Source of the DNA: a virus
IMG/VR virus record: IMGVR_UViG_3300048929_000198
Span: 1-29,016 of that record
DNA: 29,016 nucleotides
Reading direction: 5' to 3' (one strand)
Shown here piece after piece: positions 4,836-20,403 of this stretch. A program made the position numbers and the translations under genes. Under the pieces are notes generated by a model that was not told the DNA's origin, ran no database searches, and worked only from the letters and a program-made list of their open reading frames with translations. Numbering within the stretch: position 1 is the first letter of the stretch; each line of letters opens with the position of its first letter.

Positions 4836-4901
4836 CGAGGAATGCTTCGCCGTGGTATTGCCAATGACTGTCGCAGGTCAGTCGCTACGGTGGGAGATTT
4901 T

Positions 4902-6047
4902 ATGGAAGAGACACAGCGAGCAGCCGAGGTGCAGAAGATCTTCGCCGCGTTAAACGGTTTGATGACCGATGCAGCCGAGAGGGAGCAGCTTGATTGGACG
5001 GCCAACCATGGGTACGCCTCTTCTCTCGCCTCGATCGTGAGTAAATTCAAAAGCTCGCCGGTGACCTCACAGACAGTGAACGAACTGAACTTCGAGCTCG
5101 ATGTGCTTTCTAGGGAGTATATCGATGTAGTGGAGCGGGCAACGATCTCCGACGGTGATGCGACGTCTTCTTACTCCCTCAAGGAGGGGATTCGCGCGTT
5201 ACAGGATCACCTTTCCTATCTCGATCAAGAAAATATTATTTTTCATGTACCTGATCCCGAGACTGTCCTTCCGCCTCAACAAGCGATCGCGCCGTTCCAG
5301 TTTAAAGTAACTGAGACACAGGTTAGCCTCATCGAGCAGACCAATCATCCAAAAGATGGTTCCAGTGAGATAGCTCAAGCTGCACTCAGAGTGCTGTTAC
5401 GGGTGGCAGACGACATCCGAGAAGACCTAGCAAATTCTAACCACCCTCAAGTTCTGCGGGCTTTTATCCCCCTCCAAGAATCTTTGGTTGAAGAGAGGGG
5501 CGTAATCGAGACTGGCATCAACGCGACTATGTTTGACGCCCAAGTCAATGCGCGTAGCGATGAGATTTCCAGTGGCCTGCACGCTAGCCTAGCTGAATTT
5601 GCGCGCAGCACTCTCAATTACTGCGCACAGTTTCAGGATTGGCAGCTTTACGTCGATAACGTTACTGAGACCAGGCTTTCCGAAGAGGACTCTCAGAGGT
5701 TCACGAATATAGCTAAAGGCATGGCAGAAAGTTTGGCTTCGCAGCCTGCTGTCGATCCGCGTGTAATTGAAGCGCTAAGAACTGCTGGAGAGTGGGGCGA
5801 AACGATCAAAACACCTCAAGGCCGGGTGGGAGTTGCGAAAACTGTTCTTAATGTTGTCGCGGGCTGCTTCAATTTCGTAGTCAGGGCCCCCCTGAAAGAA
5901 ATTGCCAGTTCGGTTGTAAAGGAAGCCATTATCATCGGTCTCACTTATGCGATTACCAACTGGGGGCTGATGTTTAACGTACCCGACGGATCATGGCTAT
6001 TTCAGGCTGCCGATTTTATTCGCGAGATGCTCAAAGCGCTAAAATAG
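4902..6047 (+). CDS. Unrecognised 381-aa protein with hydrophobic C-terminus (probable moron)
   Basis: The open frame begins at 4842, but the ATG at 4902 has GGGAG at 4892-4896, 5 nt upstream, so 381 aa is preferred. I do not recognise a family. The protein is largely alpha-helical and acidic, with long amphipathic stretches. Near the C-terminus there is a run VVAGCFNFVVRAPL and then a hydrophobic segment around IIIGLTYAITNWGLMF that could be one membrane span or hairpin, ending in a basic helix. There is no signal peptide and no catalytic signature. Third-position A/T is visibly higher than in the structural genes, as in the DUF2971 gene. It sits alone between the fibre gene and the giant gene. 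A soluble helical sensor with a membrane-proximal C-terminus would fit an abortive-infection or superinfection-exclusion effector, but that is inference from context alone. Confidence 0.6.
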   Translation: MEETQRAAEVQKIFAALNGLMTDAAEREQLDWTANHGYASSLASIVSKFKSSPVTSQTVNELNFELDVLSREYIDVVERATISDGDATSSYSLKEGIRALQDHLSYLDQENIIFHVPDPETVLPPQQAIAPFQFKVTETQVSLIEQTNHPKDGSSEIAQAALRVLLRVADDIREDLANSNHPQVLRAFIPLQESLVEERGVIETGINATMFDAQVNARSDEISSGLHASLAEFARSTLNYCAQFQDWQLYVDNVTETRLSEEDSQRFTNIAKGMAESLASQPAVDPRVIEALRTAGEWGETIKTPQGRVGVAKTVLNVVAGCFNFVVRAPLKEIASSVVKEAIIIGLTYAITNWGLMFNVPDGSWLFQAADFIREMLKALK

Positions 6048-6131
6048 GCATGGAAGGGCTACTAACGTGCCGAAGTGGCTGGCCACGTCCTTCCAATTCA
6101 CCGTAGCGCAATCTATACCGGAACATCACGT

Positions 6132-6147
6132 CCGCGCATGAGTGCGG
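6132..6147 (+). terminator. Possible short hairpin upstream of the giant gene
   Basis: CCGCGC (6132-6137), loop ATGA and GTGCGG (6142-6147) form a 6-bp stem with one G-U pair, followed by CTTCTC. It lies in the 121-nt gap between the 381-aa gene and the giant gene and could be a weak terminator or a leader hairpin. It is too small to be certain. Confidence 0.25.
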
Positions 6148-6168
6148 CTTCTCGATAGGAGCCCACGC

Positions 6169-9100
6169 ATGCCAATCGTTATCGGACTCGGCGAAGATGC
6201 CGAGTGGAAAGACCCGCTCAACCTTTTTGGTGGCGAAGCACCGGGTCTAGCGCCTTCAACCGGTAATGTAGATCGACAAAAACCAGACCAGAATATGCGC
6301 GTTTCCATGCCTGAAGGCATGTCAGAGCGCGATTGGAATGACACCGTCAATACGGTGATTGCCGAGGCGGCAGGCGAGGGCGATGAAGGAATGGCGGGGG
6401 TGGCGCACGTCATTCAGAACCGTTCGAAGGTTCGCGGTCAGTCGATCGGGGATGTCGTCAGAGATCCAGACCAGTTCACCGGCTACTCCAAGCCGGGCCC
6501 GAAAGCACAGGAAGCCATGCGTGACCCGCAGATGCGGGCGAGGGCCGAGAATATCCTACGATCTGTCATGGCTGGAGAGGGTGACGATCCTACCGGTGGC
6601 GCGGACCATTATCACGCCGACTATGTGAGCCCGTATTGGGCAAAGTCTATGGTCGAGACCAAGCGCATCGGCAATCACCTCTACTACAATTCCAAGGCAG
6701 GCAATAAGCCGACCAGCTCCGAGACTGCGTTCGTTTCAGAGAATGATGGTTTGGGCCTATTGGGGCCGAAAGGCCAGTTTGGTGATATGCTGAAGGGTGA
6801 GCAGAAGTCCGACGTTCCCAACCCGAGCGGGAAGGGACTGGCGAGACTCGTCAGGGAGCCAGAAGAGAAAGAGAACAGCGGGGGCGGAAAGCTCAACTTC
6901 GTGCACCCCGGTCAGGAGAAGATTGCGCCGCAGTTTGCCGCGATCCTCACTGACACGTCGAAGGCCATGGGACGCGATATCACGATCAACTCTGGGTACC
7001 GGTCGCCTACTCATCGCGTGGAAGCGGCAAAGCCAGGCGGACCCGGCGAGCATTCGGATGGCACCGCGTCTGATATCTCGATGAAAGGCATGAGCGAAGG
7101 CGAACGCGCCAAATTGGTGCGCGAGCTATATTCCCGCGGTGCTCGTCGCTTTATCACCTACAAAAACAGCCCCGACATGCTCCACGTCGACATGAAGGAT
7201 CAGACGGGCAAGGGCACGCCTTGGTTCATGTTCGACAAGTCAGCCCGCAACATGCCGAACGCGCCGGCGTGGTTCAAGGAAGTGGCGGCAAATCCCGGCG
7301 AGGCGTCAGCATCCCGAGAAGCGATCGCATCTTCGCAGGGTGATGGTGGCGCCGCGGCCGGTACCGCGATCGTCATGGACGAGAATTACAAAGCTGGTGA
7401 CGCTTTCGGCCTCTTTTCCGGCACCACAAACCCCCTCGAAGCGGAGGCGAAGGCGACAGCCCAGGCAAGAACCGATGCCGCAGCAGCCGAGGCGCAGCGG
7501 ATCGAGCAAGAGCGCGTCGCGTCAGAAACAGCAGCCAACAATCGGACGGTTGATGCCCGCATAGCGGATGGCAAGGGTCGCTATGTGGCGGTCAATGAGA
7601 GCGAGCTTCCTGATTGGCAGAAGCAGTGGGACCAAAAGAACCGCTCGTCCGGCATCGTTGGCGATATCGTCCGGCGCTTCGGTATGGGCGCTGGTAGCAC
7701 CAGCCAGTCCATAAACAACCTCAATCGGCTTATCGTCTCCAAATTGCCGGGTGGCGACAGGATCAACGAGGCGCTCGATGGAATTGACCGCTGGTGGACT
7801 GGAAAGACCCAGAACGAGCAGACCCAAGAGAGTATCGATCGGATGTCTGGCAGTCTTTCGCCAGAAGGCGAGGCGGCTCGAGAGAAGAAGTGGTGGGACG
7901 AGGAAAACAAAACGCTCGGACCGGCATGGAAAGATCCGCGAAGCTATATCGGCACCATTGCTGAAAGCGCCCCGGCGACGATCGCCACTATGGCACCTTC
8001 GGGCCTGCTCGCTCGAGGCTCATTTATGGCCGCACGGGCAGCTGGCGCAACGGCAGAGGCCGCAGCAGCGACCGCCGCAAAGACAGCAACGATCGCCGGA
8101 GGCATCTCAGAAGGTCTTTTGGGCGGTGCAGATGCTGCTCTGTCAGTCAAACAGCGCATTGCTGAACTCCCGCGTGAGCAGCTCGTCGCCTCAGAGGCAG
8201 TGAAGCAGCTCGTCCAGGGTGGATTGTCGGAAGACGACGCCATCAAAGCGCTCAGTGAAGATGCCCAGGTGCAGGCCATGCTCACGGCTGGTGTCATCAC
8301 CGGAGCCTTCGGCGGTATGGGTGACCGTGCGCTCGCGAAGATCATCGCAGAAGGCGTAGAAGGAGGTATTGCTCGACGGATTGGCGTCGGTGCGGCGAAG
8401 GGAATGGTTGGCGAAGGCATCTTCGAAGAAGCGCCGCAAAGCGCAGGCCAGACCATCGCCGAAAACGCGGCGGTAGCGCGGGTGAAGCATGATCAGGATC
8501 TGACGGAAGGCCTGGGCGAATCCGTGGCGAGCGGTGTAGCAGCCGGTGGCGCAATGGGCGGCGGCATGGGTGCCGTGGGTGGCGTCGCTCGTCCGGCCGC
8601 AAGCAACACAGGCCCATCACCAGAGGTTGGGCAGGCAGCCCCGGAACCAACAGCGCCAGTCGAGCCAGATGACCGCGGACCTCTTCGTCGAGCAGCTGAT
8701 CACGGCCAGCAGCGCCAGGCAGACCGCGGGGCAGCCGCGAATGCTGGTGTCCCGATCGATGGCCGTCCCGGCGTCAAATCCACCGTGCGCGTCGAAGCTG
8801 AAGGCGTTACGCCTTTCATGGGCACCGTTGAAGGTTACGAGGGCGACGAGGCCGTCGTGGTCGATAGTGGAAGCGGGGAAGTCTATCAGGTGCCGTTGGC
8901 AAACCTGAGCGAGATTGCGCCTCCGGTCGCTGACTACCAGTATCCGGAAAAATCCCAGGACGGCATGCCTGAGCACTCGGCAGACCCGGCGCTGCAGCCA
9001 TTGCCGCCCATGTCGGCGGAGCTGACGTCAGAAATGCCGCCACGGTCCGAAGATATCCCCGCGACAGAGAAGCGCCCGACGAGGCCGCAGGCAGGCCAGC

Positions 9101-12100
9101 GCGTCATTGTTAATGATCCGGCAGCAGGCCGCTTCTCCGCCCGGATTGAGCGATATGAGAACGGTGGTACCGAGGCCGTTGTCGTCGATGACGAAGGCAA
9201 GCCTTATCAGGTGCCCCTCGAGTCAATGAAGGTCAACGGCCTGACGCCGGCGCAAGTCGAACAACAGGACCTCGAGCGTGATCCGCCCATCGAGCGCGAA
9301 ATCGGCGATGCAGGGCCGAACAGCCGAAAGATCGGCGACAAGACTGTCGTACTGCCGGATGAGAAGCACGCCGCGCTATACGACCTTGCCCGCGAACAGA
9401 TCATCGCCAAGAAGCTCGGCGGCACCTCTCAGATCGATATGGACAGCGTCTTGCCGCAAGAGCGCAAGCGGCTTGCGAACGAATTTCGCATTAAGGTGTC
9501 GGATCTGGCGACCTTGGCCGATGACTACCGGTACCGGGCAGAGCGAGCCGCTAAACAGGCGAAATCCAAGCTTCCGGTCAACATGCATGCGGTGAACGAT
9601 CGCTTGCTGAAACAGCGCCAATCAGCACTGGCGAAAGAGGCCGGTGAGGCACCGACACCGACCGCCGATGATGGCGCGACCTGGTGGGACGTTGATCTGA
9701 CCGCACAGGATCGCAAGGGCATTCTTGAAAAAGCGGGCGTCAAGCGCTCTGAGAGGCTGACTTGGGCCGGCATGACGCCGGGCATCCGGAAGAAGCTGAC
9801 CGACGTGCGGGACGCGCAGAGGGCTGCTTCGGAGGACGTCGAGACGCTGTCCGGGCAGAGCGATGTTTCTGCCAAAATGCAGGCCATTGCAGATGAAATC
9901 GGTCAGGATGATGGAGCTGTATATCCCGATCATGCGGAAGCGATGCAGGCTGACGCGGCTGCCAACATGGCGGCCACATCGCCAACCAACGATGGTTCAG
10001 AGCCCACTGAAGCGCAGAAGGAAGCCGGAAACTACAAGGTCGGGCGTCTGAAGTTGGGCGGCCTCGATGTCTCGATCGAAAATCCGGCTGGATCTACGCG
10101 AAAGGGCGTCTCCTCATCTGGTAAAGCATGGGCCGTCGAGATGAAGAGCCATTACGGCTACATCCGCGGTACCGTCGGTCGCGACAAGGACCATATCGAC
10201 GTCTTCGTTCGTCCTGGTACCGATGCGCTGGACGATTCCTCTCCGATCTTTGTCGTCGACCAGAAAGACCCCGCGCGCGGTCGTTTCGACGAGCACAAAG
10301 TGATGGCTGGTTTCGACAACGAAGCGCAGGCGCGTGCCGCATATCTCGAAAACTACACCGCTGACTGGAAGGGGCTGGGAGACATCACCCAGACCACGCT
10401 TGGCGATTTCAAGACGTGGTTGAAGTCCGGCAAGACTTCAGACCCTTTCGCACCGAAATGGTTTGCGTCACAGGAGAAGGCGGAGGGCTACGTCGCTAAG
10501 AACAAGATGGGCGAGACCCACGAGGTTGTTCAGAGAGGTAAGCGCTTCGAAGTTCTGGAGCGAGCGCGCACCACGCCAGCGGTCCGCAGCGGGAAAGGCA
10601 CTGAGCTTGATCCAAACGCTCATCCTTGGTCCGATGTTTGGGGGAGCGATGCCGATGCGGTCTCTGACGCGCTTAGCCGCATCACCAGCACCAACGGCGG
10701 CGACACTCCTATCTCGGATGCCGTTAAGGCGGACGTCGGCAACAAGGAACTGTTGCAGCTGATCGAGAAGCGTTGGGGTGAAGGCGGCGCAGGTGGCAAT
10801 CGCTACATGATCGAGACCCGCAAGGGACCGATCGTGACGATCACGCTGGAAAAGGACGAGGGCAACCAGCGTATCGTTCTGCGCGGCAAAGAACTGGCAG
10901 ATGCCATCCGCAAGGAGTTCGCTGTTTCGCTTGAGGACATGAAGCGTGAGGCTGCCGCTCGTGAAGAGAAGGTGGAAGCACCACAGCAGCCGAAACAGGA
11001 AGCCCCAGCGCAGCAAGAACAGGCTAAATTGAAGCCTAAACCCGCAGTCTCGGAGAACAAGCTTTTCACCGAAGACGCCGCTGCCAAGGCGCGCGAGTTG
11101 CTCCGAAAGAAGCTCTCTGGGAACACGCTGAACAGCGGCATTGACCCGGAATTGCTGCAGGCCGGTATTACGCTCGCCGGCTATCACATCGAAAAGGGTG
11201 CCCGCACCTTTGCCGCATATGCGTCCGCCATGCTCGCTGACCTTGGAGAAGGCGCGCGCCCGTACCTGAGATCGTGGTATATGGGGGTGAAGTATGACCC
11301 CCGCGCCTCGGCATTCGATGGGATGTCGAGCGCGGCAGAGGTCGAGGCCGCAGACGTCAACACCTTCACCGGAGAGACCAATGAACCTGAACAACTGGAT
11401 CGAGATGGGGCGCCAGCACTGGAAGGAGTTTCTGCCGAACCGGTACCGGGAGCTGAAAGCGGCCGGGACGCTGGACGAAGCACTGGAGACAGCAGCGGAG
11501 CAGACGTATCTGGAAGCCGACCAGCTGGAGAAGAACGGGTTCCAGGCGGACGAGGCGTGGCAGATGGTGAGGGAGAACTATCTCCTGTTGCCGCCGGAAG
11601 ACAGCCAGGCAACCGAAAGCCAGACGCAGACGTCGCAGGATCTGATGAGCGCAGCGAGAAGCGGGCAAAGGACGGTCGAGATCAGGTAGCTCGTACAGCA
11701 GCGGTTCCGGCGCAGCAGCGCCCATCCGATTACGTCATCACCGACGCTGACGGTCTGGGTGAGGGCGGTCAAAAGGCGAAGTTCCGTGCAAACGTCGCCG
11801 CGATCGAGTTGGTGAAGCAGCTCGACGAGCAGAAGAGACCAGCCACCCGCGACGAGCAGGCGGTTCTCGCTAAATGGGTCGGCTGGGGCGGCTTGCGAGC
11901 TGCTTTCCCGCGTGAAGATGGCAGTGTCGCCAAGGGCTGGGAAAAGGAAGCGGCGGAGCTGAAATCGCTGCTGACGAAGGAAGAGTATAGCGCCGCCGAG
12001 TCATCGACGAGGAACGCGCATTACACGTCGCCTGAAATCGTCGATGCAGCGTGGTCGATTGCGCAGCGCCTCGGCTTTAAGGGAGGCCAGGTGCTTGAGC

Positions 12101-15100
12101 CGTCCGTTGGAGCTGGAAACTTCCTCGGTCTGATGCCCGGTGAAGTGCGCGGCACTTCCCACGTCACCGGCGTCGAACTGGACCGGATCACGGGTAGTAT
12201 TGCCAAAAATCTTTATCCATCGGCAAACATTCAGGCCCCGATCGGCTTTGAGAAGCTGACCGTCCCCAATTCCTACTTCGATCTGGCGATCGGCAATCCG
12301 CCATTTGGCTCTGAAAAGCTCTATGACAAAGAGCGGACGCATCTCAACACGCTGTCGATCCATAATTTCTTCTTTGCCAAGGCGATCGAGACGCTGCGAC
12401 CAGGTGGCATCCTAGCGATGGTCGTTACAAACCGGTTCCTGGACGGCCAGTCAGCAGCAGCGCGCAACCTGATCCAATCCAAGGCGGATTTCATCGGCGC
12501 TATCCGCCTGCCGAATGACGCGTTCTTGAAGAACGCCGGTACCGAAGTCACAACGGACATCGTCATTCTACAGCGCAGAGAAGCCGGCGCAGCCCCGAAG
12601 GGCAGCGATTGGCTCGAAGTTGTCGATTATCGCGCCAGGAACGGCAACGTCGTACCTCTCAACAAGTATTTCGTCGAAAATCCCGACATGATGCTGGGCG
12701 AGTTCGGCGGCTACGGCTCTATGTACGGTCCCAACGAGCCCGCCTTGATCGCTCGAGGCGGTCAGAATACCGCGGCGGAGCTGGCGAAAGCTGTCGAGAA
12801 GCTGCCCCAAGACATCATGGGCGATACTGTGCCTGTGAGGGTGACAGAAACTGTCACGGTACCGGAAACAGTGGGCGACGTTCAGGTCGGCACGATGTTC
12901 TCCGCCCCGGACGGATCAATTCATCTCCGCACCCCTGATCACATCGGCCAGCCCACATCCAAGGCAGTCGATTTCGCCAACGAGACGGCGAAAGAGCGCG
13001 TCGCCGGAATGGTCCGAGTAAGGGATGCTTTCGCCAAGCTGAGACGCGCTCAGATCAGCGATACCGCCTCGGATCAGCAGATTGAAAACCTGCGAAAAAG
13101 GTTGAATACCTTCTACGATGCCTTTGTAAACAAACACGGACCTATTAACAGCGACGCGAACAAGCGTCTATTCCGAGACGATCCGACGTGGCCGCAAATC
13201 AGCGCTCTTGAGCAATCCTTCGACAAGGGTTTGAGAGCGGCACTTGCCAAAAAAACAGGGGAAAAGCCCCGCGCACCTACTGCAACGAAGGCGGCGATCT
13301 TCACGCGGCGGACGCAGCAGCCTTACAGACGCCCGACAAACGCCAGCAGCGCGAAGGACGCGCTTGCGACGATTCTCAATGATTATGGTCGGGTGAACCT
13401 CGAGGCCATGTCGGACCTATATGGCAAGTCGCAAGAAGCCATCGTGGAAGAGTTGGGGTCTCTGATCTTCAAGACGCCTGCGGGCGCCTATGAGACGGCA
13501 GACCAATATCTTTCCGGCAATGTGAAGCAGAAGCTTGCAGAGGCCGAACGCGCCGCAGAGCAGGATCCAGAATACCGCCGCAATGTGAATGCGCTGCGCG
13601 ACGTGATCCCAGCCGACATCGAGGCGATCGATATCGATGTGAAGCCAGGCGCTCCATGGTTGCCAGCGAACCATGTCGAAGACTTCATTGCTCACATCGC
13701 GCAGGCAGCGGTGAAGCCGCGCGCCTATTATTCCGTCGCGAATGCGAAGTGGGACCTCACGGTCTCGCAAGTCACGCCGGCGGCGCAGACACTTTGGGGG
13801 ACTGACAGAGCCGGCGTAGGGACCGTCCTGAGTGCCGTGATGAACGGTCAGACCATCACGATCTCCGACAGGACATCGGATGGCAAGTCCATCGTCGATC
13901 AAGCAGCAACCGATGCGGCCAATGAGAAGGTGGAGCGCGTAAAAGCCGAGTGGCGCAAGTGGCTCTGGCAAGACGACAAGCGCCGTGACGATCTCGCGCG
14001 GCTTTATAACGACACGTTCAATACCGACGTTATCCAGCAGTTCGACGGCTCGCACCTCACATTGCCGGGGAAGGTCGGCGACGACATCATCGAGCTTCGT
14101 CCAAGCCAGAAGAATTTCATCTGGCGCACTTTGCAGAGCGGTACCGCTCTTGCCGATCACACCGTGGGAGCGGGGAAGACATTCGCGGCGATCGCCTCGG
14201 TCATGGAGAAGCGCCGAACCGGCCAAGCCCGCAAACCAATGATGGTGGTACCGAACCATCTTGTCGGGCAGTGGGCAGCCGACTTCGTGCGTCTTTATCC
14301 AGGCGCTAAGGTGCTGGCAGCCACAAAGCAGGATTTTGAGAAGGAACGGCGGAAACGTCTTTTCGCTCGCATAGCCACCGGCGATTGGGACGCGGTCATT
14401 GTCGCTCACTCCTCATTCGGCAGAATCGGCGTTGATCCGAATTATGAGGCGAAGTTCATCCAGCAGCAGATGGATGATCTGGAAGCCTCGCTGGCAGAGG
14501 TACGGCGCGAGACCGGGCAGAAAAGCCGAAACGTGGCGCAACTCACCAAGTGGCGCGACAACCTGAAAGCCAAGATGGAGCGGCTGCTCGATTCCGGACG
14601 CAAGGATGACGGCCTTACCTTCGACGAGCTGGGCGTCGATGCGCTCTATGTCGATGAGGCGCACGAGTTCAAGAACCTTGCTTACTCGACATCGATGCAA
14701 CGCGTGGCTGGTCTCGGCAACATGGCCGGATCCTCAAAGGCCGCTGACCTCTACATGAAGTCCCGGTTCATCCTTGAAAAGACCGGTGGCAACAACCTGG
14801 TGTTCCTCACCGGCACTCCGCTGTCGAACACGATGGCCGAAATGTACACCGTCCAGCGCTATCTCGACGAGAAGGCGCTGCGGGCCATGGGCGTGGCGCA
14901 TTTCGATGCGTGGGCGCGTGTCTTCGGCGAAGTCGTCACTGATTGGGAATTGTCACCGTCCGGTCAGTATAAGCTCAATAGCCGCTTCTCCAAGTTTGTG
15001 AACGTTCCTGAGCTGATGCAGCGGTATCGCAGCTTCGCCGACGTCATCACCAACGACGACATCAAGGCGCAGCTTGCCGCACAGGGCAAGAAATTCCCTC

Positions 15101-18100
15101 TGCCAAAGGTCAAGGGCGGAAAGCCTACCAACATCGTAGTGGAGCGCTCCCCTGATCAGGCAGCTTACATCGGCGTGGGGCAGGCCGATGACGCCGGCAA
15201 CCTGGTGTTCCCGAATGGGTCTCTTGTATGGAGGGCCGAGAACCTGCCGAAGAAGGCCGAGAAGGGCAAAGACAACATGCTGAAAGTCATGTCGGACGCC
15301 CGTAAGGCGGCGCTCGATATGCGTCTGATCGACCCAAGCTATCCGGACCACCCAAAGTCGAAGATCCATCGCGCCGCAAACGAGATGACGCGGATCTACA
15401 AGGCGTCAAAAGAAGATCGCGGTACCCAGCTCGTCTTTATCGACTTGTCCACTCCCAAAAAGGAGAGGGTCAAGGAGCAAATACGTATACGTGACCTCAT
15501 GGAGCGCGCCGCTCAGGGTGATGAGGCGGCTATGGAAACGCTCGACAACATGTCCCCCGACGAGTTCCTTTCACTCGACAGCACGTTCTCCGTCTACGAT
15601 GACCTGAAGCAAAAGCTCGTCGCTCGCGGCATATCGGAAAGCGAAATCGCCTTCATCCACGATGCCAACACTGAGGCGCAGAAGGAGGAATTGTTCGGAA
15701 AGGTCCGTTCAGGCCGCGTCCGCTTCCTATTCGGCTCTACCGCGAAGATGGGCGCCGGTACCAACGTTCAGAACCGCCTCGTCGCGCTGCATCACCTTGA
15801 TGCACCGTGGCGTCCTTCCGACCTTGAACAGCGTGACGGGCGAGGGATACGCCAGGGCAATGAGCTATATGCTGCCGATCCGGAAGGTTTCGAGATCGAA
15901 ATCCTCCGCTATGCCACGAAGAACACGCTTGATGCTCGCCAGTGGCAGACCATCGAGGCCAAGGCGCGGTTTATCCAGCAGGTGCGCAAGGGTGATATGA
16001 AAACCCGCGAAATCGAGGACATAGCAGGCGAAGCCGCGAACGCCGCTGAAATGAAAGCAGCCGCTTCCGGCAATCCTCTCATCCTTGAGGAGATGGACAC
16101 GCGCCGGAAGCTCAGACAGCTTGAGGGCCAGTCTATCGAGCACGACCGTGAGCAGCATCGCGTGAAGGGCAAGATCAAGTCGCTCGAAGATGAAGCGGAC
16201 CGGTTGCAGCGTGGTCTCTCAAAGGTCGAAGCCGATGCCGATTTGGCGCGAAAGGTTCCCGAGGAGTTCGCCGGTACCGTTGGTGGTCAAACGTTTGAAA
16301 AGCGCAAAGACTTTGGCGCGGCCATCGTCGCGGCGATGCGAAAAGAGCTGATCGACAAGGAAGGCGTTCGCGAGATCGGCGAGTACGCCGGTTTCAAGGT
16401 CGGCATTGATCCTCTGGGATTTGGCAGAGCGTTCAACGTGACGCTCGAGGGCGCGCGGGAATACACTGTTCCAGTCGACGACGCTTCCGACGTCGATGCT
16501 GCTGGTCTCGCGCAGCGCATCATGAATACCGTGAAGCGCCTCGCAAACCAGCCAGCGATCGACAAAGAGCGCATCAGCGAGGCGAAAGCGCAGGTTCCCG
16601 CCCTTCAAAAGCAGATCGGCGCGTGGGAAGGCGCTCAGGAGCTTGCCGATACCGCCGCTCGCCATCGCCGGATTTTGGACGCGCTGAAGCCTCAGCCAAA
16701 GAGTGCCAAGACGTCGGTCAAGGTGGAAGCTGGTGATGTGGATGCCCCGATCGCGAACAAGCGTCCTGATCCTGTCGTTATAGCCATCGCCAATGATCTG
16801 CAAACCGTCGGCATACCGGCTGCGCCCAATAGCACGGCCATCTTCCAGTGGGCGAAGGACACGATCGCGCGTTTCGGCAAGTCGGGGCACGAGTATCTTA
16901 TGGCCGTCGACGACGATGGCAGCGTTGTCGAGTTCGGTACCGCCAAGAAGAAGGCCGCGACCGGAATCAACAACAAGCTGTATGGCGCATTGCTCAATCC
17001 AGATCGTCGCCTCGTTGTGTTCCACAATCACCCCAGCAACAGCCCTCTGAGTGTTGCCGATATCTCAATGATGGGGATGCCGGGACTTCACTCGGTCTGG
17101 GCATTTGGAGCGAACGGCATGCAGATGCGCGCCGTTCTCACCCCCGAGGCAGAGGCCGTGATGCGCGCCGCGGCAGATCCCAATCAGACAGTGAAGGCTT
17201 GGCGAGACACCTTGTCGTCGGCGCTTGAGCAAGTCGATGCATTCTTGCGCCCACTCGTCACCAGCGGCGTGATCGATGTGGAGGCTGGCAACGCTGCCTA
17301 TACCAACACGGCGGCAATTCTGGCTCAAAAGGCCGGGCTTATCGACATTTCCTCAAATACCAACTATGATACTTCCGCCATCGAGGGCTTGAATGCCAAG
17401 CTCGATAAATTGGCGGTCGCTCTGAAGGAACAGATCAGCGATGGCACAGCAGGCAGCACCGATAAGGGGATTTCACGACGACCCGCCCGCGACGTTCGAC
17501 ACGTTGCAGAAGTGGAAGGATTGGCACGCATCGGTGAGCCAATGGCCGGCACGCGATCCGGACCGGCAGGGCTATCTGAAACAGGCGCGCCAGATTATCA
17601 GAGAAAAGAGCGCCGTTCAGACAAACAGCCAGGACGAGTCGAAGGCGTAACCCAATCGCGCATCGTCGAGGAGCTGCGCGGTAAGCTGACCGATTTGCAG
17701 CCTGCGCTCCTGAAAACCATCCCCCTTAACTATTTCTCAGAACTTGCCCGTTCGAACATGACGGCGGTTGGCGACTATCTGCGCGTCAAGCGCTTGATGG
17801 ATGCCTTCAGGGGGAAGAAGCATGCCGAGGCCGATTCCGTAGCACAGGATTGGTTGAAATACACCCGTCTTGGGTTTGCCGGCAAAGACAAGGCCAAGGC
17901 GCAGGAACTTGCCGACCTGATGCATGACGCTACCCTCGCGGGTGTCGATCCAGCCGCTACGGACGACGAGACCAAAGCGCTCTCCGGGGATGACCACCTG
18001 CGCAAGCGTTTCATGGCGCTGCCGCCAAAGGGGCGGGAACTTTATGTGAAAGTCAGGGACGCGTATCGGGAGCAGTCGCAGGAGCTTGACGAAATACTGC

Positions 18101-20403
18101 TCGACAACGTCCGCAAGGCACAGCAGATCGCTGAGAAAAACGCCGAGGATCGTTACAAGCTCACGATGCAGAAGATCAAGGACGCTGGACTGACCGGCAT
18201 TGATCGCAAGAACGCCGAGGAAGATGCCACCAGCGCCTACAAGGCGGAGACGACGAAATCCCGATGGGCAGCGAAAGCCCGCCTGACCCGGATGCGCATT
18301 GCGTTCGAATCGAGCCGGGTGCAGCCTCCATATTTTCCTCTTGGCCGTTTCGGTCGGTATTTCGCGACCGTGCGGGACATCGATGGAAGGGTGCTGAGCT
18401 TCTCAAAGCACGAGACCGTCGCTGAACGCGATCGGATGGCGCGCGAGCTACGAGCTGAATATCCGGCCGGAAAAGTCGAAGTCGGTGTGATGGAAGCCAG
18501 CGGCGACATGCGCAAGGCTATGGATCCGCGCATCGTCGCAGAAATCGAGGAGATTTTGGGCGGCGCGAACATTGGCGGCGACGTCATGGATCAGATATGG
18601 CAGCGATACCTCGAGTCGATGCCAGACCTGTCTACCCGCAAGCGCTTCATCCACCGTAAGGGCACTGCGGGTTACAGCAAGGATGCACTGCGCGTCTTCT
18701 CCTCGCACATGTTCCACGCCGCCCACCAGATGGCACGCCTGAAATACGGCCTCGAGCTGCAGGAGCTGGTCAACAACACGGTTGACCAGGCGAAGGAGAG
18801 CGACGATCAGACCCGCGCCATGACGTTGGCGAATGAGCTTTCCAGCCGCCACAAGTGGGTGATGAACCCGACTGGCAGCAAGGTCGCTCAGACGATGACG
18901 AGCACCGCCTTCGTGTGGTACCTCGCTGCATCCCCCGGTGCCGCTCTGGTCAACATGACGCAAACTGTCATGCTTGGTCTGCCTATTCTGGCTGCCAAAT
19001 TCGGAGGCTTTAAGCAGGCAGCAGTAGCGCTCAGTAAAGCTTCCGCCGATTCTGTAGCTGGCAAGGGCAGTGTGGTGAGCGATCGCCTCGCACCGGACGA
19101 GCGGCGAGCGATGGACGCGTTCTACGAATCCGGGCTGATCGACAGAACACAAAGCCATGATCTCGCAGGGGTGGGCGAAACGGGTGTCGAGTACACGCCT
19201 CTCCGAGCAAAGGTGATGGAGAAGATTTCATGGGCTTTCCACCGCGCCGAGGTTTGGAACCGTGAGGTAACTGCACTCGCGGCCTACCGCATGGCTCGCG
19301 CTGAAGGTCAGAATATGTCTGACGCGATCGACACCGCTCACGATCTGACGTGGAAGACGCACTTCGACTATTCCAACAGCTCGAGGCCCGCCGTTCTGCA
19401 GAACGACTTCGCAAAGGTCGCTCTCGTTTTCCGTCAGCACAACATCAACATGCTTTACCGGGTGGCGCGCGACATCCACCAGTCGGTTAAGGGCGAAACT
19501 CCACAGGCCCGGCGCGAAGCCCGGTACCAGCTCGCCGGCGTCATGGGCATGATGGCAGCTATGGCCGGCGTGACGGGAACCATGGGCTTCAGCGTTGCTA
19601 TGATGATTGCGGGCGCGATCTTCGGCGATGATGACGACCCGATGGCGTTTGAAGATCAGTTCAAGGCCGATGTCGTCGATATCCTCGGCCCGCAGCTGGG
19701 GGGCGTTCTTCTCAACGGTGTGCCGGGGCATTATCTGGGCATCGACCTGTCATCCCGCATTGGCATGCCGGATCTGTGGTTCCGGTCGCCGACGAGGGAG
19801 CTGCAAGGCAAGGACGAATACCAGTATTGGCTATCGCAGAGCCTCGGCGCGACGGTCAGCCTGGGCGAGCAGCTCTACACCGGCTTCAAGGTCATGACGG
19901 ATGATGGAGACGTGGCGCGCGGCATAGAGATGATGGCGCCGAAGGCGGTTCGCGACCTGATGAAAGCCTATCGCTACTCGCAGGACGGCGTTGCGACGAT
20001 CGGTAAGGATCAGATCCTCGGTGCCGACCAGATCGACGCGACAGATATTGTCGCGCAGGCGATGGGCTTCACCCCCGCCAAGATTGCAGAGACGTGGGAG
20101 CGAAACAGCGCACTGAAGAACGCAGAGACCCGCGTCAAGCGCACCCGTCAAGCGTTGATCAACAGATGGGCGATGGCGACGATGGCGGGCGACAAGGAAG
20201 CTGCGGCAGAGGTGCTGGAGAGCATCAAGCGGTTCAATTCTCTCCCCGTTCACGCTGGTTTCCCGATCAAGGGCGAAACCCTCAAGCGCTCGATCCAGAC
20301 ACGTGCCACCAACGCGGCGAAGAGAGAAGATGGGGTTCTGATCGGCAACAAGGCGCTGGGAGCGTCGCTGAGAGAGCGGTTGGCCGATCCGGTCTATCGA
20401 TAA
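6169..20403 (+). CDS. Giant polyvalent PLxRFG protein: SleB-M15-InPase-methylase-SNF2-JAB fusion (4744 aa)
   Basis: The ATG at 6169 has AGGAG at 6157-6161 (7-nt spacing); an in-frame GTG at 6142 is less likely. Domains in order, by residue: SleB-like hydrolase 51-174; M15-like Zn peptidase 242-372; Ala-rich coiled coil about 430-480; Ala/Gly-rich hydrophobic region 601-811; two SH3-like repeats 872-916 and 977-1022; InPase 1288-1421; a conserved helical block 1631-1714; disordered linker 1 about 1735-1843; N6-adenine methylase 1852-2140; SNF2 helicase 2640-3290; coiled coil 3310-3360; JAB/RadC-like 3530-3690; disordered linker 2 about 3755-3830; PLxRFG region 3835-4744. This matches the polyvalent proteins described from phages and conjugative elements, thought to travel with the DNA into the new host and carry entry and anti-restriction functions. 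Here it is probably an ejected virion protein. The TAA (20401-20403) is followed by a terminator-like hairpin. Catalytic motifs of all enzyme domains look intact. Two other genes lie in its +1 frame inside the linkers. Confidence 0.92.
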   Translation: MPIVIGLGEDAEWKDPLNLFGGEAPGLAPSTGNVDRQKPDQNMRVSMPEGMSERDWNDTVNTVIAEAAGEGDEGMAGVAHVIQNRSKVRGQSIGDVVRDPDQFTGYSKPGPKAQEAMRDPQMRARAENILRSVMAGEGDDPTGGADHYHADYVSPYWAKSMVETKRIGNHLYYNSKAGNKPTSSETAFVSENDGLGLLGPKGQFGDMLKGEQKSDVPNPSGKGLARLVREPEEKENSGGGKLNFVHPGQEKIAPQFAAILTDTSKAMGRDITINSGYRSPTHRVEAAKPGGPGEHSDGTASDISMKGMSEGERAKLVRELYSRGARRFITYKNSPDMLHVDMKDQTGKGTPWFMFDKSARNMPNAPAWFKEVAANPGEASASREAIASSQGDGGAAAGTAIVMDENYKAGDAFGLFSGTTNPLEAEAKATAQARTDAAAAEAQRIEQERVASETAANNRTVDARIADGKGRYVAVNESELPDWQKQWDQKNRSSGIVGDIVRRFGMGAGSTSQSINNLNRLIVSKLPGGDRINEALDGIDRWWTGKTQNEQTQESIDRMSGSLSPEGEAAREKKWWDEENKTLGPAWKDPRSYIGTIAESAPATIATMAPSGLLARGSFMAARAAGATAEAAAATAAKTATIAGGISEGLLGGADAALSVKQRIAELPREQLVASEAVKQLVQGGLSEDDAIKALSEDAQVQAMLTAGVITGAFGGMGDRALAKIIAEGVEGGIARRIGVGAAKGMVGEGIFEEAPQSAGQTIAENAAVARVKHDQDLTEGLGESVASGVAAGGAMGGGMGAVGGVARPAASNTGPSPEVGQAAPEPTAPVEPDDRGPLRRAADHGQQRQADRGAAANAGVPIDGRPGVKSTVRVEAEGVTPFMGTVEGYEGDEAVVVDSGSGEVYQVPLANLSEIAPPVADYQYPEKSQDGMPEHSADPALQPLPPMSAELTSEMPPRSEDIPATEKRPTRPQAGQRVIVNDPAAGRFSARIERYENGGTEAVVVDDEGKPYQVPLESMKVNGLTPAQVEQQDLERDPPIEREIGDAGPNSRKIGDKTVVLPDEKHAALYDLAREQIIAKKLGGTSQIDMDSVLPQERKRLANEFRIKVSDLATLADDYRYRAERAAKQAKSKLPVNMHAVNDRLLKQRQSALAKEAGEAPTPTADDGATWWDVDLTAQDRKGILEKAGVKRSERLTWAGMTPGIRKKLTDVRDAQRAASEDVETLSGQSDVSAKMQAIADEIGQDDGAVYPDHAEAMQADAAANMAATSPTNDGSEPTEAQKEAGNYKVGRLKLGGLDVSIENPAGSTRKGVSSSGKAWAVEMKSHYGYIRGTVGRDKDHIDVFVRPGTDALDDSSPIFVVDQKDPARGRFDEHKVMAGFDNEAQARAAYLENYTADWKGLGDITQTTLGDFKTWLKSGKTSDPFAPKWFASQEKAEGYVAKNKMGETHEVVQRGKRFEVLERARTTPAVRSGKGTELDPNAHPWSDVWGSDADAVSDALSRITSTNGGDTPISDAVKADVGNKELLQLIEKRWGEGGAGGNRYMIETRKGPIVTITLEKDEGNQRIVLRGKELADAIRKEFAVSLEDMKREAAAREEKVEAPQQPKQEAPAQQEQAKLKPKPAVSENKLFTEDAAAKARELLRKKLSGNTLNSGIDPELLQAGITLAGYHIEKGARTFAAYASAMLADLGEGARPYLRSWYMGVKYDPRASAFDGMSSAAEVEAADVNTFTGETNEPEQLDRDGAPALEGVSAEPVPGAESGRDAGRSTGDSSGADVSGSRPAGEERVPGGRGVADGEGELSPVAAGRQPGNRKPDADVAGSDERSEKRAKDGRDQVARTAAVPAQQRPSDYVITDADGLGEGGQKAKFRANVAAIELVKQLDEQKRPATRDEQAVLAKWVGWGGLRAAFPREDGSVAKGWEKEAAELKSLLTKEEYSAAESSTRNAHYTSPEIVDAAWSIAQRLGFKGGQVLEPSVGAGNFLGLMPGEVRGTSHVTGVELDRITGSIAKNLYPSANIQAPIGFEKLTVPNSYFDLAIGNPPFGSEKLYDKERTHLNTLSIHNFFFAKAIETLRPGGILAMVVTNRFLDGQSAAARNLIQSKADFIGAIRLPNDAFLKNAGTEVTTDIVILQRREAGAAPKGSDWLEVVDYRARNGNVVPLNKYFVENPDMMLGEFGGYGSMYGPNEPALIARGGQNTAAELAKAVEKLPQDIMGDTVPVRVTETVTVPETVGDVQVGTMFSAPDGSIHLRTPDHIGQPTSKAVDFANETAKERVAGMVRVRDAFAKLRRAQISDTASDQQIENLRKRLNTFYDAFVNKHGPINSDANKRLFRDDPTWPQISALEQSFDKGLRAALAKKTGEKPRAPTATKAAIFTRRTQQPYRRPTNASSAKDALATILNDYGRVNLEAMSDLYGKSQEAIVEELGSLIFKTPAGAYETADQYLSGNVKQKLAEAERAAEQDPEYRRNVNALRDVIPADIEAIDIDVKPGAPWLPANHVEDFIAHIAQAAVKPRAYYSVANAKWDLTVSQVTPAAQTLWGTDRAGVGTVLSAVMNGQTITISDRTSDGKSIVDQAATDAANEKVERVKAEWRKWLWQDDKRRDDLARLYNDTFNTDVIQQFDGSHLTLPGKVGDDIIELRPSQKNFIWRTLQSGTALADHTVGAGKTFAAIASVMEKRRTGQARKPMMVVPNHLVGQWAADFVRLYPGAKVLAATKQDFEKERRKRLFARIATGDWDAVIVAHSSFGRIGVDPNYEAKFIQQQMDDLEASLAEVRRETGQKSRNVAQLTKWRDNLKAKMERLLDSGRKDDGLTFDELGVDALYVDEAHEFKNLAYSTSMQRVAGLGNMAGSSKAADLYMKSRFILEKTGGNNLVFLTGTPLSNTMAEMYTVQRYLDEKALRAMGVAHFDAWARVFGEVVTDWELSPSGQYKLNSRFSKFVNVPELMQRYRSFADVITNDDIKAQLAAQGKKFPLPKVKGGKPTNIVVERSPDQAAYIGVGQADDAGNLVFPNGSLVWRAENLPKKAEKGKDNMLKVMSDARKAALDMRLIDPSYPDHPKSKIHRAANEMTRIYKASKEDRGTQLVFIDLSTPKKERVKEQIRIRDLMERAAQGDEAAMETLDNMSPDEFLSLDSTFSVYDDLKQKLVARGISESEIAFIHDANTEAQKEELFGKVRSGRVRFLFGSTAKMGAGTNVQNRLVALHHLDAPWRPSDLEQRDGRGIRQGNELYAADPEGFEIEILRYATKNTLDARQWQTIEAKARFIQQVRKGDMKTREIEDIAGEAANAAEMKAAASGNPLILEEMDTRRKLRQLEGQSIEHDREQHRVKGKIKSLEDEADRLQRGLSKVEADADLARKVPEEFAGTVGGQTFEKRKDFGAAIVAAMRKELIDKEGVREIGEYAGFKVGIDPLGFGRAFNVTLEGAREYTVPVDDASDVDAAGLAQRIMNTVKRLANQPAIDKERISEAKAQVPALQKQIGAWEGAQELADTAARHRRILDALKPQPKSAKTSVKVEAGDVDAPIANKRPDPVVIAIANDLQTVGIPAAPNSTAIFQWAKDTIARFGKSGHEYLMAVDDDGSVVEFGTAKKKAATGINNKLYGALLNPDRRLVVFHNHPSNSPLSVADISMMGMPGLHSVWAFGANGMQMRAVLTPEAEAVMRAAADPNQTVKAWRDTLSSALEQVDAFLRPLVTSGVIDVEAGNAAYTNTAAILAQKAGLIDISSNTNYDTSAIEGLNAKLDKLAVALKEQISDGTAGSTDKGISRRPARDVRHVAEVEGLARIGEPMAGTRSGPAGLSETGAPDYQRKERRSDKQPGRVEGVTQSRIVEELRGKLTDLQPALLKTIPLNYFSELARSNMTAVGDYLRVKRLMDAFRGKKHAEADSVAQDWLKYTRLGFAGKDKAKAQELADLMHDATLAGVDPAATDDETKALSGDDHLRKRFMALPPKGRELYVKVRDAYREQSQELDEILLDNVRKAQQIAEKNAEDRYKLTMQKIKDAGLTGIDRKNAEEDATSAYKAETTKSRWAAKARLTRMRIAFESSRVQPPYFPLGRFGRYFATVRDIDGRVLSFSKHETVAERDRMARELRAEYPAGKVEVGVMEASGDMRKAMDPRIVAEIEEILGGANIGGDVMDQIWQRYLESMPDLSTRKRFIHRKGTAGYSKDALRVFSSHMFHAAHQMARLKYGLELQELVNNTVDQAKESDDQTRAMTLANELSSRHKWVMNPTGSKVAQTMTSTAFVWYLAASPGAALVNMTQTVMLGLPILAAKFGGFKQAAVALSKASADSVAGKGSVVSDRLAPDERRAMDAFYESGLIDRTQSHDLAGVGETGVEYTPLRAKVMEKISWAFHRAEVWNREVTALAAYRMARAEGQNMSDAIDTAHDLTWKTHFDYSNSSRPAVLQNDFAKVALVFRQHNINMLYRVARDIHQSVKGETPQARREARYQLAGVMGMMAAMAGVTGTMGFSVAMMIAGAIFGDDDDPMAFEDQFKADVVDILGPQLGGVLLNGVPGHYLGIDLSSRIGMPDLWFRSPTRELQGKDEYQYWLSQSLGATVSLGEQLYTGFKVMTDDGDVARGIEMMAPKAVRDLMKAYRYSQDGVATIGKDQILGADQIDATDIVAQAMGFTPAKIAETWERNSALKNAETRVKRTRQALINRWAMATMAGDKEAAAEVLESIKRFNSLPVHAGFPIKGETLKRSIQTRATNAAKREDGVLIGNKALGASLRERLADPVYR
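6319..6690 (+). other. Domain: SleB-like cell-wall hydrolase (giant protein residues 51-174)
   Basis: The pattern AEAAGEGDEGMAGVAHVIQN (65-84) followed by R85, then a V-V..P.QF segment, DPTGGADHYH and a final NHLYYN, is the Hydrolase_2/SleB layout (E-A.GE...G..AVA.vi.NR; QF; DPT.GA..Y). E66 or E70 would be the catalytic acid. SleB-type enzymes are lytic transglycosylases. In a virion protein this would help DNA cross the peptidoglycan, or it could serve lysis. Confidence 0.85.
6892..7284 (+). other. Domain: M15-like D,D-peptidase (residues 242-372)
   Basis: SGYRSPTHR, then GEHSDGTASDIS, then MLHVDMK match the Peptidase_M15_3 pattern. H295, D302 and H339 would be the zinc ligands and are all present. 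Members cut peptide bonds in peptidoglycan stems. The domain follows the SleB-like domain after a 70-residue linker, giving glycan-strand and peptide-cutting activities on one chain. Confidence 0.8.
7969..8601 (+). other. Ala/Gly-rich hydrophobic region of the giant protein (residues 601-811)
   Basis: About 200 residues are dominated by Ala, Gly, Ile and Met, with helices such as AGATAEAAAATAAKTATIAG and a terminal GGAMGGGMGAVGGVA stretch. In between is EGIFEEAPQSAGQTIAEN, a motif seen in large phage ejection proteins. The composition suits insertion into or passage through a membrane. Function is inferred. Confidence 0.5.
8782..8916 (+). other. SH3-like repeat A (residues 872-916)
   Basis: TVRVEAEG, F.GTVEGYEGDEAVVVD and YQVPLANL form a small beta-barrel-like unit. 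It is paralogous to the unit at residues 977-1022, with which it shares the AVVVD..G..YQVPL core. Such units usually bind nucleic acid or protein; here the role is unknown. Confidence 0.6.
9097..9234 (+). other. SH3-like repeat B (residues 977-1022)
   Basis: QRVIVNDPAAG.F.ARIERYENG precedes the same EAVVVDDEGKPYQVPLESM core as in repeat A, about 105 residues downstream of it. This is an internal duplication separated by a Pro/Glu-rich linker. Confidence 0.6.
10030..10431 (+). other. Domain: polyvalent-protein inorganic-pyrophosphatase-like (InPase, residues 1288-1421)
   Basis: The block starts NYKVGRL..GL.VSIENPAGS.R, continues HYGYIRGTVGRDKDHIDVFV, then FVVDQKD....FDEHKVMAGF and ends FKTWLKSG. 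D1339-x-D1341-x-x-D1344 reproduces the D-x-D-x-x-D metal-binding signature of class I inorganic pyrophosphatases. This fits the InPase family described within phage polyvalent proteins. It would hydrolyse pyrophosphate or a related phosphoanhydride; the true substrate is unknown. Confidence 0.85.
11371..11376 (+). promoter_or_regulatory. Shine-Dalgarno-like GGAGAG for the nested gene at 11381
   Basis: GGAGAG stands 4 nt (GGAG 6 nt) upstream of the ATG at 11381, well placed for internal initiation on the giant mRNA. Confidence 0.55.
11381..11689 (+). CDS. Nested gene in +1 frame inside the giant gene (102 aa)
   Basis: It lies wholly inside the giant gene, in the +1 frame, with ATG at 11381 and TAG at 11687-11689. 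The 102-aa product looks like a genuine folded helical protein. It begins MNLNNWIEMGRQHWKEF, continues with LKAAGTLDEALETAAEQTY and FQADEAWQMVRENYLLLP, and has a polar Gln/Ser/Thr tail. In this frame about 84% of third positions are G or C (86 of 102 counted by eye). In the overlapping giant frame the third positions of the same bases are only about 40% G/C and the product is a disordered Gly/Ser/Asp/Arg linker. So the nested frame carries the coding signature. I recall similar W-I-E...W.E..P...R.L small proteins beside phage polyvalent methylase genes, but cannot prove homology here. Function is unknown. The frame is open upstream to 11294, but that extension is not protein-like. Confidence 0.75.
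   Translation: MNLNNWIEMGRQHWKEFLPNRYRELKAAGTLDEALETAAEQTYLEADQLEKNGFQADEAWQMVRENYLLLPPEDSQATESQTQTSQDLMSAARSGQRTVEIR
11722..12588 (+). other. Domain: N6-adenine DNA methylase (residues 1852-2140)
   Basis: Motif I is VLEPSVGAGNF (1975-1985), which would bind AdoMet. Motif IV is NPPFG (2043-2047), the catalytic loop of N6-adenine methylases. Upstream are GEGG..AKFR and KWVGWGGLRAAF, the usual lead-in of phage and plasmid methylase-SNF2 proteins, and AHYTSPEIV precedes motif I. A likely role is protective methylation of incoming DNA (anti-restriction). Target specificity cannot be read from the sequence. Confidence 0.9.
14086..16038 (+). other. Domain: SNF2-type helicase/translocase (residues 2640-3290)
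   Basis: Walker A is VGAGKT (2666-2671), the DEAH box is VDEAH (2828-2832), motif III is LTGTPLSNT (2880-2888), and the C-terminal lobe has STAKMGAGTNVQNR and motif VI QRDGRGIRQGN (3221-3231). All motifs look intact, so the ATPase is probably active. SNF2 proteins move along duplex DNA. Coupled to the methylase, this would be an anti-restriction or DNA-remodelling engine. Confidence 0.92.
16756..17238 (+). other. Domain: JAB/RadC-like metalloprotease fold (residues 3530-3690)
   Basis: HNHPSNSPLSVADI holds the JAMM pattern: H3619, H3621, S3628 and D3631. It is preceded by KLYGALLNPDRRLVVF, as in RadC/MPN domains. The zinc-binding residues are kept, so an isopeptidase or peptidase activity is possible. 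It could process the giant chain itself or act on host proteins; neither is proven. Confidence 0.8.
17441..17650 (+). CDS. Second nested gene in +1 frame inside the giant gene (69 aa)
   Basis: ATG at 17441 and TAA at 17648-17650, in the +1 frame of the giant gene, the same phase as the first nested gene. The product begins MAQQAAPIRGFHDDPPATF and then forms Trp- and Arg-rich helices (LQKWKDWHASVSQW, YLKQARQIIREKS) before a polar tail. About 74% of third positions are G/C in this frame (51 of 69 by eye) against about 46% in the giant frame, whose product here is a disordered Gly/Arg/Ser linker. AAGGA at 17425-17429 is 11 nt upstream, longer than ideal, so initiation may be weak. Function is unknown. 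It sits just between the JAB-bearing block and the PLxRFG block, as the first nested gene sits between the InPase block and the methylase block. Confidence 0.65.
   Translation: MAQQAAPIRGFHDDPPATFDTLQKWKDWHASVSQWPARDPDRQGYLKQARQIIREKSAVQTNSQDESKA
17671..20400 (+). other. PLxRFG C-terminal region with hydrophobic segments (residues 3835-4744)
   Basis: The eponymous PPYFPLGRFGRYF lies at 4053-4065. It is preceded by long charged helices (about 3950-4040) and followed by a hydrophobic stretch at 4248-4276 (FVWYLAASPGAALVNM onwards). A stronger one lies at 4453-4486 (Met/Ala/Gly-rich), ending in an acidic GDDDDP turn. This 900-residue block is the standard C-terminus of PLxRFG phage proteins. 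A role in membrane insertion during ejection is inferred from composition. Confidence 0.8.

Follow-up and report, generated by a model that had tools for sequence, protein, structure and literature searches.

Two small genes nested out of frame at module borders of a giant polyvalent phage gene

A single giant phage gene of the polyvalent (DarB-like, PLxRFG) kind carries two small genes, A and B, that lie entirely within its open reading frame, are read in the +1 frame relative to it, and sit at the borders between its domain blocks. The gene was found in a 29,016-nt stretch of virus DNA (IMG/VR record IMGVR_UViG_3300048929_000198), which we call the window. Patterns of substitution among relatives confirm, as far as sequence comparison can, that A and B are real genes under selection. 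Ordinary copies of B directly behind separate MuF-JAB genes point to how one of the two borders may have formed.

Results

The giant gene and its setting

The giant gene is one frame that ends at 20403 and starts either at a GTG (6142; 4753 aa) or at an ATG (6169; 4744 aa). It is likewise a single ORF in all of its close relatives. An earlier note on this DNA had divided the protein into SleB-M15-SH3-InPase, methylase-SNF2-JAB and PLxRFG blocks, and the profile matches are consistent with those borders (Table 1; the first and last are called the N-block and C-block here). The JAB region aligns with MuF-JAB proteins at 38% over 97 aa (E about 3e-13). Unrelated enzymatic domains, LPD domains and PLxRFG are joined in one polypeptide, as in the DarB-like/PLxRFG class, and the gene lies among virion genes: in both the window and Atu_ph08 its neighbors encode virion proteins, and a gene with a tail-spike chaperone domain is close by. 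A DUF2971 gene is also found near the giant gene in the window.

Table 1. Positions of the giant gene, its domains, the nested genes and nearby genes in the window.
Feature	Position	Strand	Evidence
Giant polyvalent (DarB-like, PLxRFG) protein gene	6142..20403	+	ORF calling and profile matches
SleB-type cell wall hydrolase domain (PF07486), N-block	6373..6687	+	Profile match, E=1.8e-16
Peptidase M15 domain (PF08291), N-block	6922..7191	+	Profile match, E=1.4e-5
Inorganic pyrophosphatase polyvalent domain (PF18823), end of N-block	10009..10425	+	Profile match, E=2.8e-56
Shine-Dalgarno-like site of gene A, GGAG	11371..11374	+	
Nested gene A, 102 aa, +1 frame of giant, ATG at 11381	11381..11689	+	Conservation, codon-position flip
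N6-adenine methylase domain (PF07669), opens methylase-helicase block	12262..12489	+	E=3.2e-9
SNF2-related helicase domain (PF00176)	14131..14682	+	Profile match
Helicase C-terminal domain, after SNF2	about 15628-15858	+	Profile match
JAB (RadC-like) region	16582..17421	+	Matched by MuF-JAB proteins preceding stand-alone B
Shine-Dalgarno-like site of gene B, AAGGAA	17425..17430	+	
Nested gene B, 69 aa, +1 frame of giant, ATG at 17441	17441..17650	+	Conservation, codon-position flip
Large polyvalent protein associated domain 39 (PF18858), opens C-block	17650..18210	+	E=8e-65
PLxRFG domain (NF032893), C-block	18328..20358	+	E=1e-276
DUF2971 gene near giant	1139-1972	-	
Gene with Peptidase_S74 tail-spike chaperone domain near giant	22240-23403	-	

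Selection on the nested frames

The lengths of the A and B ORFs are ordinary. The giant gene contains 16 stop-free runs of at least 74 codons in the +1 frame, compared with a mean of 17.3 after codon shuffling, so ORF length is no evidence for either gene and the evidence has to come from conservation. When the giant gene was aligned by codon across 11 close relatives, the changes at positions 1/2/3 of its codons numbered 83/33/30 over A and 41/11/21 over B, against 1723/1043/6301 for the whole gene (Fisher P = 1.6e-32 for A and 4e-14 for B; each column was counted once, columns are not phylogenetically independent, and shared ancestry is disregarded in these P values, although the effect is large). 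A giant codon's position 1 coincides with position 3 in the nested frame. When these 11 relatives were scanned in sliding windows, position 1 exceeded position 3 only at 11344-11650 and 17464-17566, that is, over A and B, and in the rest of the gene substitutions fell mostly at position 3. The flip over A is repeated independently in the Erwinia, Klebsiella-like, Vibrio, L029 and POI1126 groups and the flip over B in the L029 group; the Bcep22 group shows one over the Bcep22-type nested gene. It is this shift of substitutions to position 1 that indicates selection on both small proteins. Assembly error is out as a cause of the nesting because independent isolates and metagenomes share both the open giant frame and the nested ORFs.

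Both genes also appear to have their own translation starts. B has a Shine-Dalgarno-like site in the window, and such a site is present 4-15 nt upstream of the A start in all 57 distinct phage loci, compared with 17 of 116 background +1-frame ATGs. We would expect both small proteins to be produced in free form. The earlier note's observation of one giant ORF with two small genes nested out of frame is thus borne out by conservation across relatives, and profile matches place both genes at module borders, as it had claimed. Its idea that the small genes serve as linkers of the giant while still being translated also fits, since both are under selection and the linker in the giant frame is little constrained except in staying open.

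Gene A across phages

Using tblastn and profile scans, we recovered gene A from 21 phage records and from some 64 viral contigs. It was present in all full-length close relatives examined, in searches that were seeded by A and so under-sample loci lacking it. The locus survey as a whole was seeded by A, B or the methylase-helicase, and blocks that are separate but diverged may escape it. In every intact giant locus A is in the +1 frame; the only exceptions are PBC5 and L056, which are discussed below. Across A in the 57 distinct phage loci, the giant frame has 0 stops in 5,960 codons, compared with 52 in 918 in the equivalent frame of stand-alone A-like genes (P=9e-47). Since the stand-alone genes contain stops and the giants have none, the long frame appears to be held open, and the giant is probably translated through A. 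We infer that the giant protein is made at full length.

AlphaFold predicted a confident helical domain for residues 1-70 of A (pLDDT about 85-90) followed by a loose tail. The giant-frame residues over the same DNA are rich in G/A/R/D/S and poorly conserved. Structure searches with the A model matched only PBC5's own protein, and in 398 Pseudomonadota genomes and in plasmids no free-standing phage-type A was found beyond the giants. A candidate for an in-frame A domain (G214/L116) was rejected as a coiled-coil chance match.

In the Erwinia phages the A frame is open for just 2 codons upstream of the ATG. The giant gene of Erwinia phage PEp14 (L009) contains two additional +1-frame ORFs that coincide with codon-position flips. 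One encodes 76 aa and has a GGAGG site (11763-11990); the other, of 69-76 aa (19908-20177), is in the place equivalent to gene B with a sequence unlike B. Equivalents of these ORFs are present in L008 and L011, giving three sequences in all, and they may be further nested genes.

A-like genes in distant giants and on plasmids

Distant giants, namely those of Pseudomonas 8P, BcepMigl, Pseudoalteromonas Y7, USP_18 and a Helicobacter prophage, carry a separately initiated +1 ORF, 90-134 aa long, directly ahead of the methylase domain. Proteins of the USP_18 type and Bcep22 type scored above all 20,000 shuffles against the A profile, as did the 8P nested protein against the plasmid profile described below; no relatives of the 8P ORF were found in viral contigs. 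Sequence support for the Y7 and Helicobacter ORFs was not significant, and in L085 and L087 the +1 ORF in the same place is without significant sequence similarity. No convincing nested A was detected in gut phages L083, L084 and L088-L090, the ICE-like L120, pTi L125 or the PRTRC plasmid L124. The methylase-helicase gene of L125 (pTiKerr27, 3183-8264) carries a lactate dehydrogenase annotation.

An A-like gene of 101-159 aa is also nested, again in +1, near the start of free-standing methylase-helicase genes of about 1,850-2,050 aa. These are found on conjugative plasmids of Burkholderia, Stutzerimonas and Methylovorus, in Campylobacter, and in one Pseudomonas genome (loci L121, L122, L123, L126 and L137). 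The methylase-helicase starts 94-136 nt upstream of the nested gene and, in four of the five loci, then encodes an F-D-F-rich motif. The nested plasmid gene shows the codon-position flip as well (P=5e-9). The annotated methylase-helicase starts of the L121 and L122 plasmids fall within the methylase homology, and the nested gene probably misled those start calls.

Stand-alone A-like genes, with no methylase-helicase in the stretch examined, occur in other Pseudomonas genomes and on small plasmids (L127, L129, L131-L136 and L138), where the frame equivalent to the methylase has 2-7 stops. Several of these (L131-L135, L138 and L129) overlap a preceding gene of 73-93 aa by about 11 nt; that gene has a weak match to DUF2857 (E 0.012), and integrative or mobilisation genes adjoin.

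When phage A and plasmid A-like profiles were compared with hhalign, the match was not significant with 3 plasmid sequences (P=0.12) and reached P=6e-4 with 14, in one comparison and with a probability of 28-33%. Three sequences (L086, L144 and L145) bridge the two sets. We base homology of phage A and the plasmid A-like genes on the weak sequence match, the bridging members, and the equal position and frame, taken jointly.

Order of events at border A

In a FastTree phylogeny of the methylase-helicases, plasmid enzymes with a nested A-like gene fall inside the phage clade (common-node support 0.98), so nesting either predates the giant architecture or does not depend on it. The tree of A-like proteins places the stand-alone copies as one group within the nested ones, with weak support and a long-branch root, and these copies are more likely to be escapes than ancestors. 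Border A is therefore best read as a module border at which nesting is not tied to the giant fusion, with A belonging to the methylase-helicase block and marking its start. The earlier proposal, in which fusion of the N-block took in an intergenic gene A, is not supported in that form, because A is already nested in free-standing plasmid methylase-helicases and the stand-alone copies appear derived. The N-block may have joined upstream of an already nested A, or may have been lost from the plasmids.

Gene B occurs separately behind MuF-JAB genes

Gene B, with two predicted helices, was initially found in Rhizobiales-type giants only. A profile search of whole genomes then turned up a B-like gene on its own, its ATG overlapping the TGA of a gene for a MuF-JAB head protein, and a scan of viral contigs yielded seven distinct loci with stand-alone B (L160, L161, L164, L165, L174, L181 and L182). 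In all seven, B lies directly behind a JAB-containing ORF of 514-641 aa, the MuF part of which is recognisable in most, and the distance from JAB stop to B start ranges from -2 to +20 nt. This is the separate state that the earlier note had predicted for relatives, found here at border B. Stand-alone copies are at least as diverse as nested ones, and the MuF-JAB proteins that precede them are short and diverse. Two other stand-alone B-like genes (L155 and L156) have no JAB neighbor.

The JAB ORFs of L165 and L181 are in the giant-type frame and end 20 and 5 nt inside B, respectively; in L165 that stop is the sole one in the giant-type frame across B. Most other stand-alone pairs have an ATGA overlap, with the JAB frame one step off the giant type. 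Over B as a whole, stops in the giant-type frame occupy 15 of 372 codons in stand-alone copies and 0 of 741 in nested copies (P=6e-8). The scan of viral contigs also added giants in which B is nested directly behind JAB, including three of other architectures (L163, L178 and L180). These have open stretches of 2764, 2587 and 3071 aa, respectively, in which JAB is followed by nested B and the further domains differ.

Border B thus fits a model of fusion through a small gene. The earlier note had proposed loss of stops plus frame matching, and L165 and L181, already in the giant-type frame, support this for B. For most JAB and B pairs, however, stop loss alone would be insufficient, since their frames differ from the giant type and a frame change would be needed as well. 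B is more aptly viewed as the JAB block's helper gene, through which the giant frame reads on toward LPD39/PLxRFG.

Split and decayed records

Comparison of gene order in relatives produced separate JAB and B genes but no relative with three separate blocks and A and B between them. The note's three-ORF fusion is supported at border B; at border A the module border stands, but the nesting is not tied to the fusion. The only record with split blocks is PBC5 (L002/L003/L026). Compared with its relatives, PBC5 is one base short in a run of G about 35-60 nt before A, and this shifts its N-block into the frame of A. We rejected this split as an ancestral state because a single missing base represents a frame break or a sequencing error. 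The missing base also produced a misleading 'endolysin' family that ends in A (phrog_938). Another record, L056, was considered as a stand-alone A beside a short methylase gene and was rejected as a decayed prophage remnant with scattered pieces of the giant gene. Its A frame looks intact, and it contains an inverted scrap of helicase.

Discussion

Comparison with known systems

The window giant has the domain set described for polyvalent proteins of phages and conjugative elements (Iyer et al. 2017, PMC5512222) and for the DarB-like virion proteins of Bcep22-like phages such as JC1 (PMC9144972) and of Atu_ph08 (PMC6630229): wall hydrolase, peptidase, InPase, methylase-helicase dyad, JAB/RadC, LPD39 and PLxRFG. 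Like the DarB-like genes of those accounts, it is located among virion genes. The JC1 member, gp69, was detected in virions by its authors (PMC9144972), and P1 DarB has been reported to be packaged in the virion and to protect against restriction. Within the open-access literature, the passages searched in PMC5512222, PMC9144972 and PMC6630229 make no mention of nested out-of-frame genes or of small genes linked to single blocks.

The closest precedent is the ShiLan-type out-of-frame HNH gene of actinophage methylases, which is likewise a hidden gene in another frame of a phage methylase gene that stays open, with the host frame predicted to be disordered (PMC11855218). That gene is a homing endonuclease located within the methylase; it is mobile, patchy in occurrence, and without a detectable ribosome-binding site (PMC11855218). 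In contrast, A and B are small helical proteins at domain borders, with Shine-Dalgarno sites, inheritance with their blocks, and stand-alone relatives. Weak matches to TnpV (PF14198), a small transposon-encoded protein, were obtained with 30 of 47 A proteins (best E=4e-4). The resemblance is below the family cut-off (window A scored 15 bits, the cut-off being 27) and is a lead only; we found no TnpV-like stand-alone relative beside a methylase-helicase, and 150 genomes yielded nothing usable. Rz1 within Rz is a known embedded phage gene, the lysis pair occupying one short gene. A and B are like Rz1 in being phage genes that are fully nested, out of frame and separately initiated. They are unlike it in that their host gene is a 14-kb fusion whose seams they mark.

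Proposed explanation and alternatives

We think it likely that the giant is made up of gene-plus-helper modules, A being the helper of the methylase-helicase and B that of JAB, with the seams read through in another frame. Both helpers would be old genes with translation of their own, A sitting at the 5' end of its methylase-helicase and B at the 3' end of its JAB/RadC-like domain. The giant mRNA would be translated from 6142 or 6169 while further ribosomes start internally at the A and B sites, and the seam DNA would do double duty, encoding a loose linker when read in the giant frame and a small helical protein when read in +1. At border B, loss of the JAB stop and matching of frames, with the PLxRFG block downstream, would give the giant arrangement; the direction of change would be from unfused to fused. 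In different architectures A goes with the methylase-helicase and B with JAB, which makes a role as partner or regulator of the adjoining block the most likely one. For example, each small protein may hold its block in an inactive or packageable state until it is ejected into the host.

A history of overprinting seems rather unlikely to us, although part of the evidence favors it. The giant, or a free-standing methylase-helicase or JAB protein, would have come first, A and B would have arisen de novo in loose linker, and the stand-alone copies would have escaped later. Nested A does look ancestral in the methylase-helicase tree, the stand-alone A-like branch lies inside the nested one, and long +1 ORFs are frequent in such GC-rich DNA. 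However, the diversity of stand-alone B, which matches or exceeds that of nested B and follows diverse short MuF-JAB proteins, is at odds with late escape, and the small proteins look ordered and helical where the giant frame is disordered and less constrained. With a young overprinted gene, order and constraint are usually distributed the other way round, which is a general expectation and not proof. That the ORFs are spurious, or products of assembly errors in a GC-rich gene, is practically negligible as an explanation: their lengths are within chance, but protein-level conservation, the position-1 flips and the independent assemblies all speak against it.

Two further readings concern A and B as elements or as extensions of other proteins. 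We regard it as very unlikely that they are mobile insertions comparable to the out-of-frame HNH elements (the ShiLan domain) that leave the frame of phage methylases unbroken. The layout is the same, an out-of-frame gene in a phage methylase gene with an open frame, and some actinophage methylases have a related gene free-standing just upstream (PMC11855218). Against this, no endonuclease or other homing domain was found in A or B with Pfam, PHROGs or NCBIfam, both genes are near-universal in whole clades and not patchy, their sites are domain borders and not a catalytic core, and they have Shine-Dalgarno sites where ShiLan has none. Hardly credible is a programmed frameshift into +1, by which A would form the last part of a truncated N-block product, the arrangement annotated for PBC5 and in phrog_938, and not an independent protein. 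The deposited PBC5 sequence does read from the N-block in frame into A, but it is short of one base compared with its relatives; moreover, the ATG and Shine-Dalgarno site of A are conserved in every distinct phage locus, and the short opening of the A frame in the Erwinia phages leaves no room for a slip site upstream.

Returning to the modules with helper genes, we would give an even chance to the broader proposition that giant proteins of mobile elements grow by read-through of helper genes, every block bringing a small partner that fusion turns into linker without ending its translation and the nested genes recording old borders, and that A and B are dedicated partners co-produced with a virion-packaged protein. 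Fusion proteins are normally thought to lose the material between the old genes. Here, the in-between genes persist within the fusion, read in a different frame, and some relatives still have separate parts, which makes this a rare case in which the route to a giant protein can be traced. A and B represent two conserved small-protein families that, in the phage and plasmid records examined, go unannotated where they are nested, and the overlap has apparently led to wrong methylase-helicase starts being called on plasmids. Since A is physically tied to an antirestriction methylase-helicase and B to a JAB domain, both can be tested as enzyme partners. In relatives the small genes also stand by themselves beside a separate part, which suggests growth of giant phage proteins by read-through of neighboring genes that are still in use.
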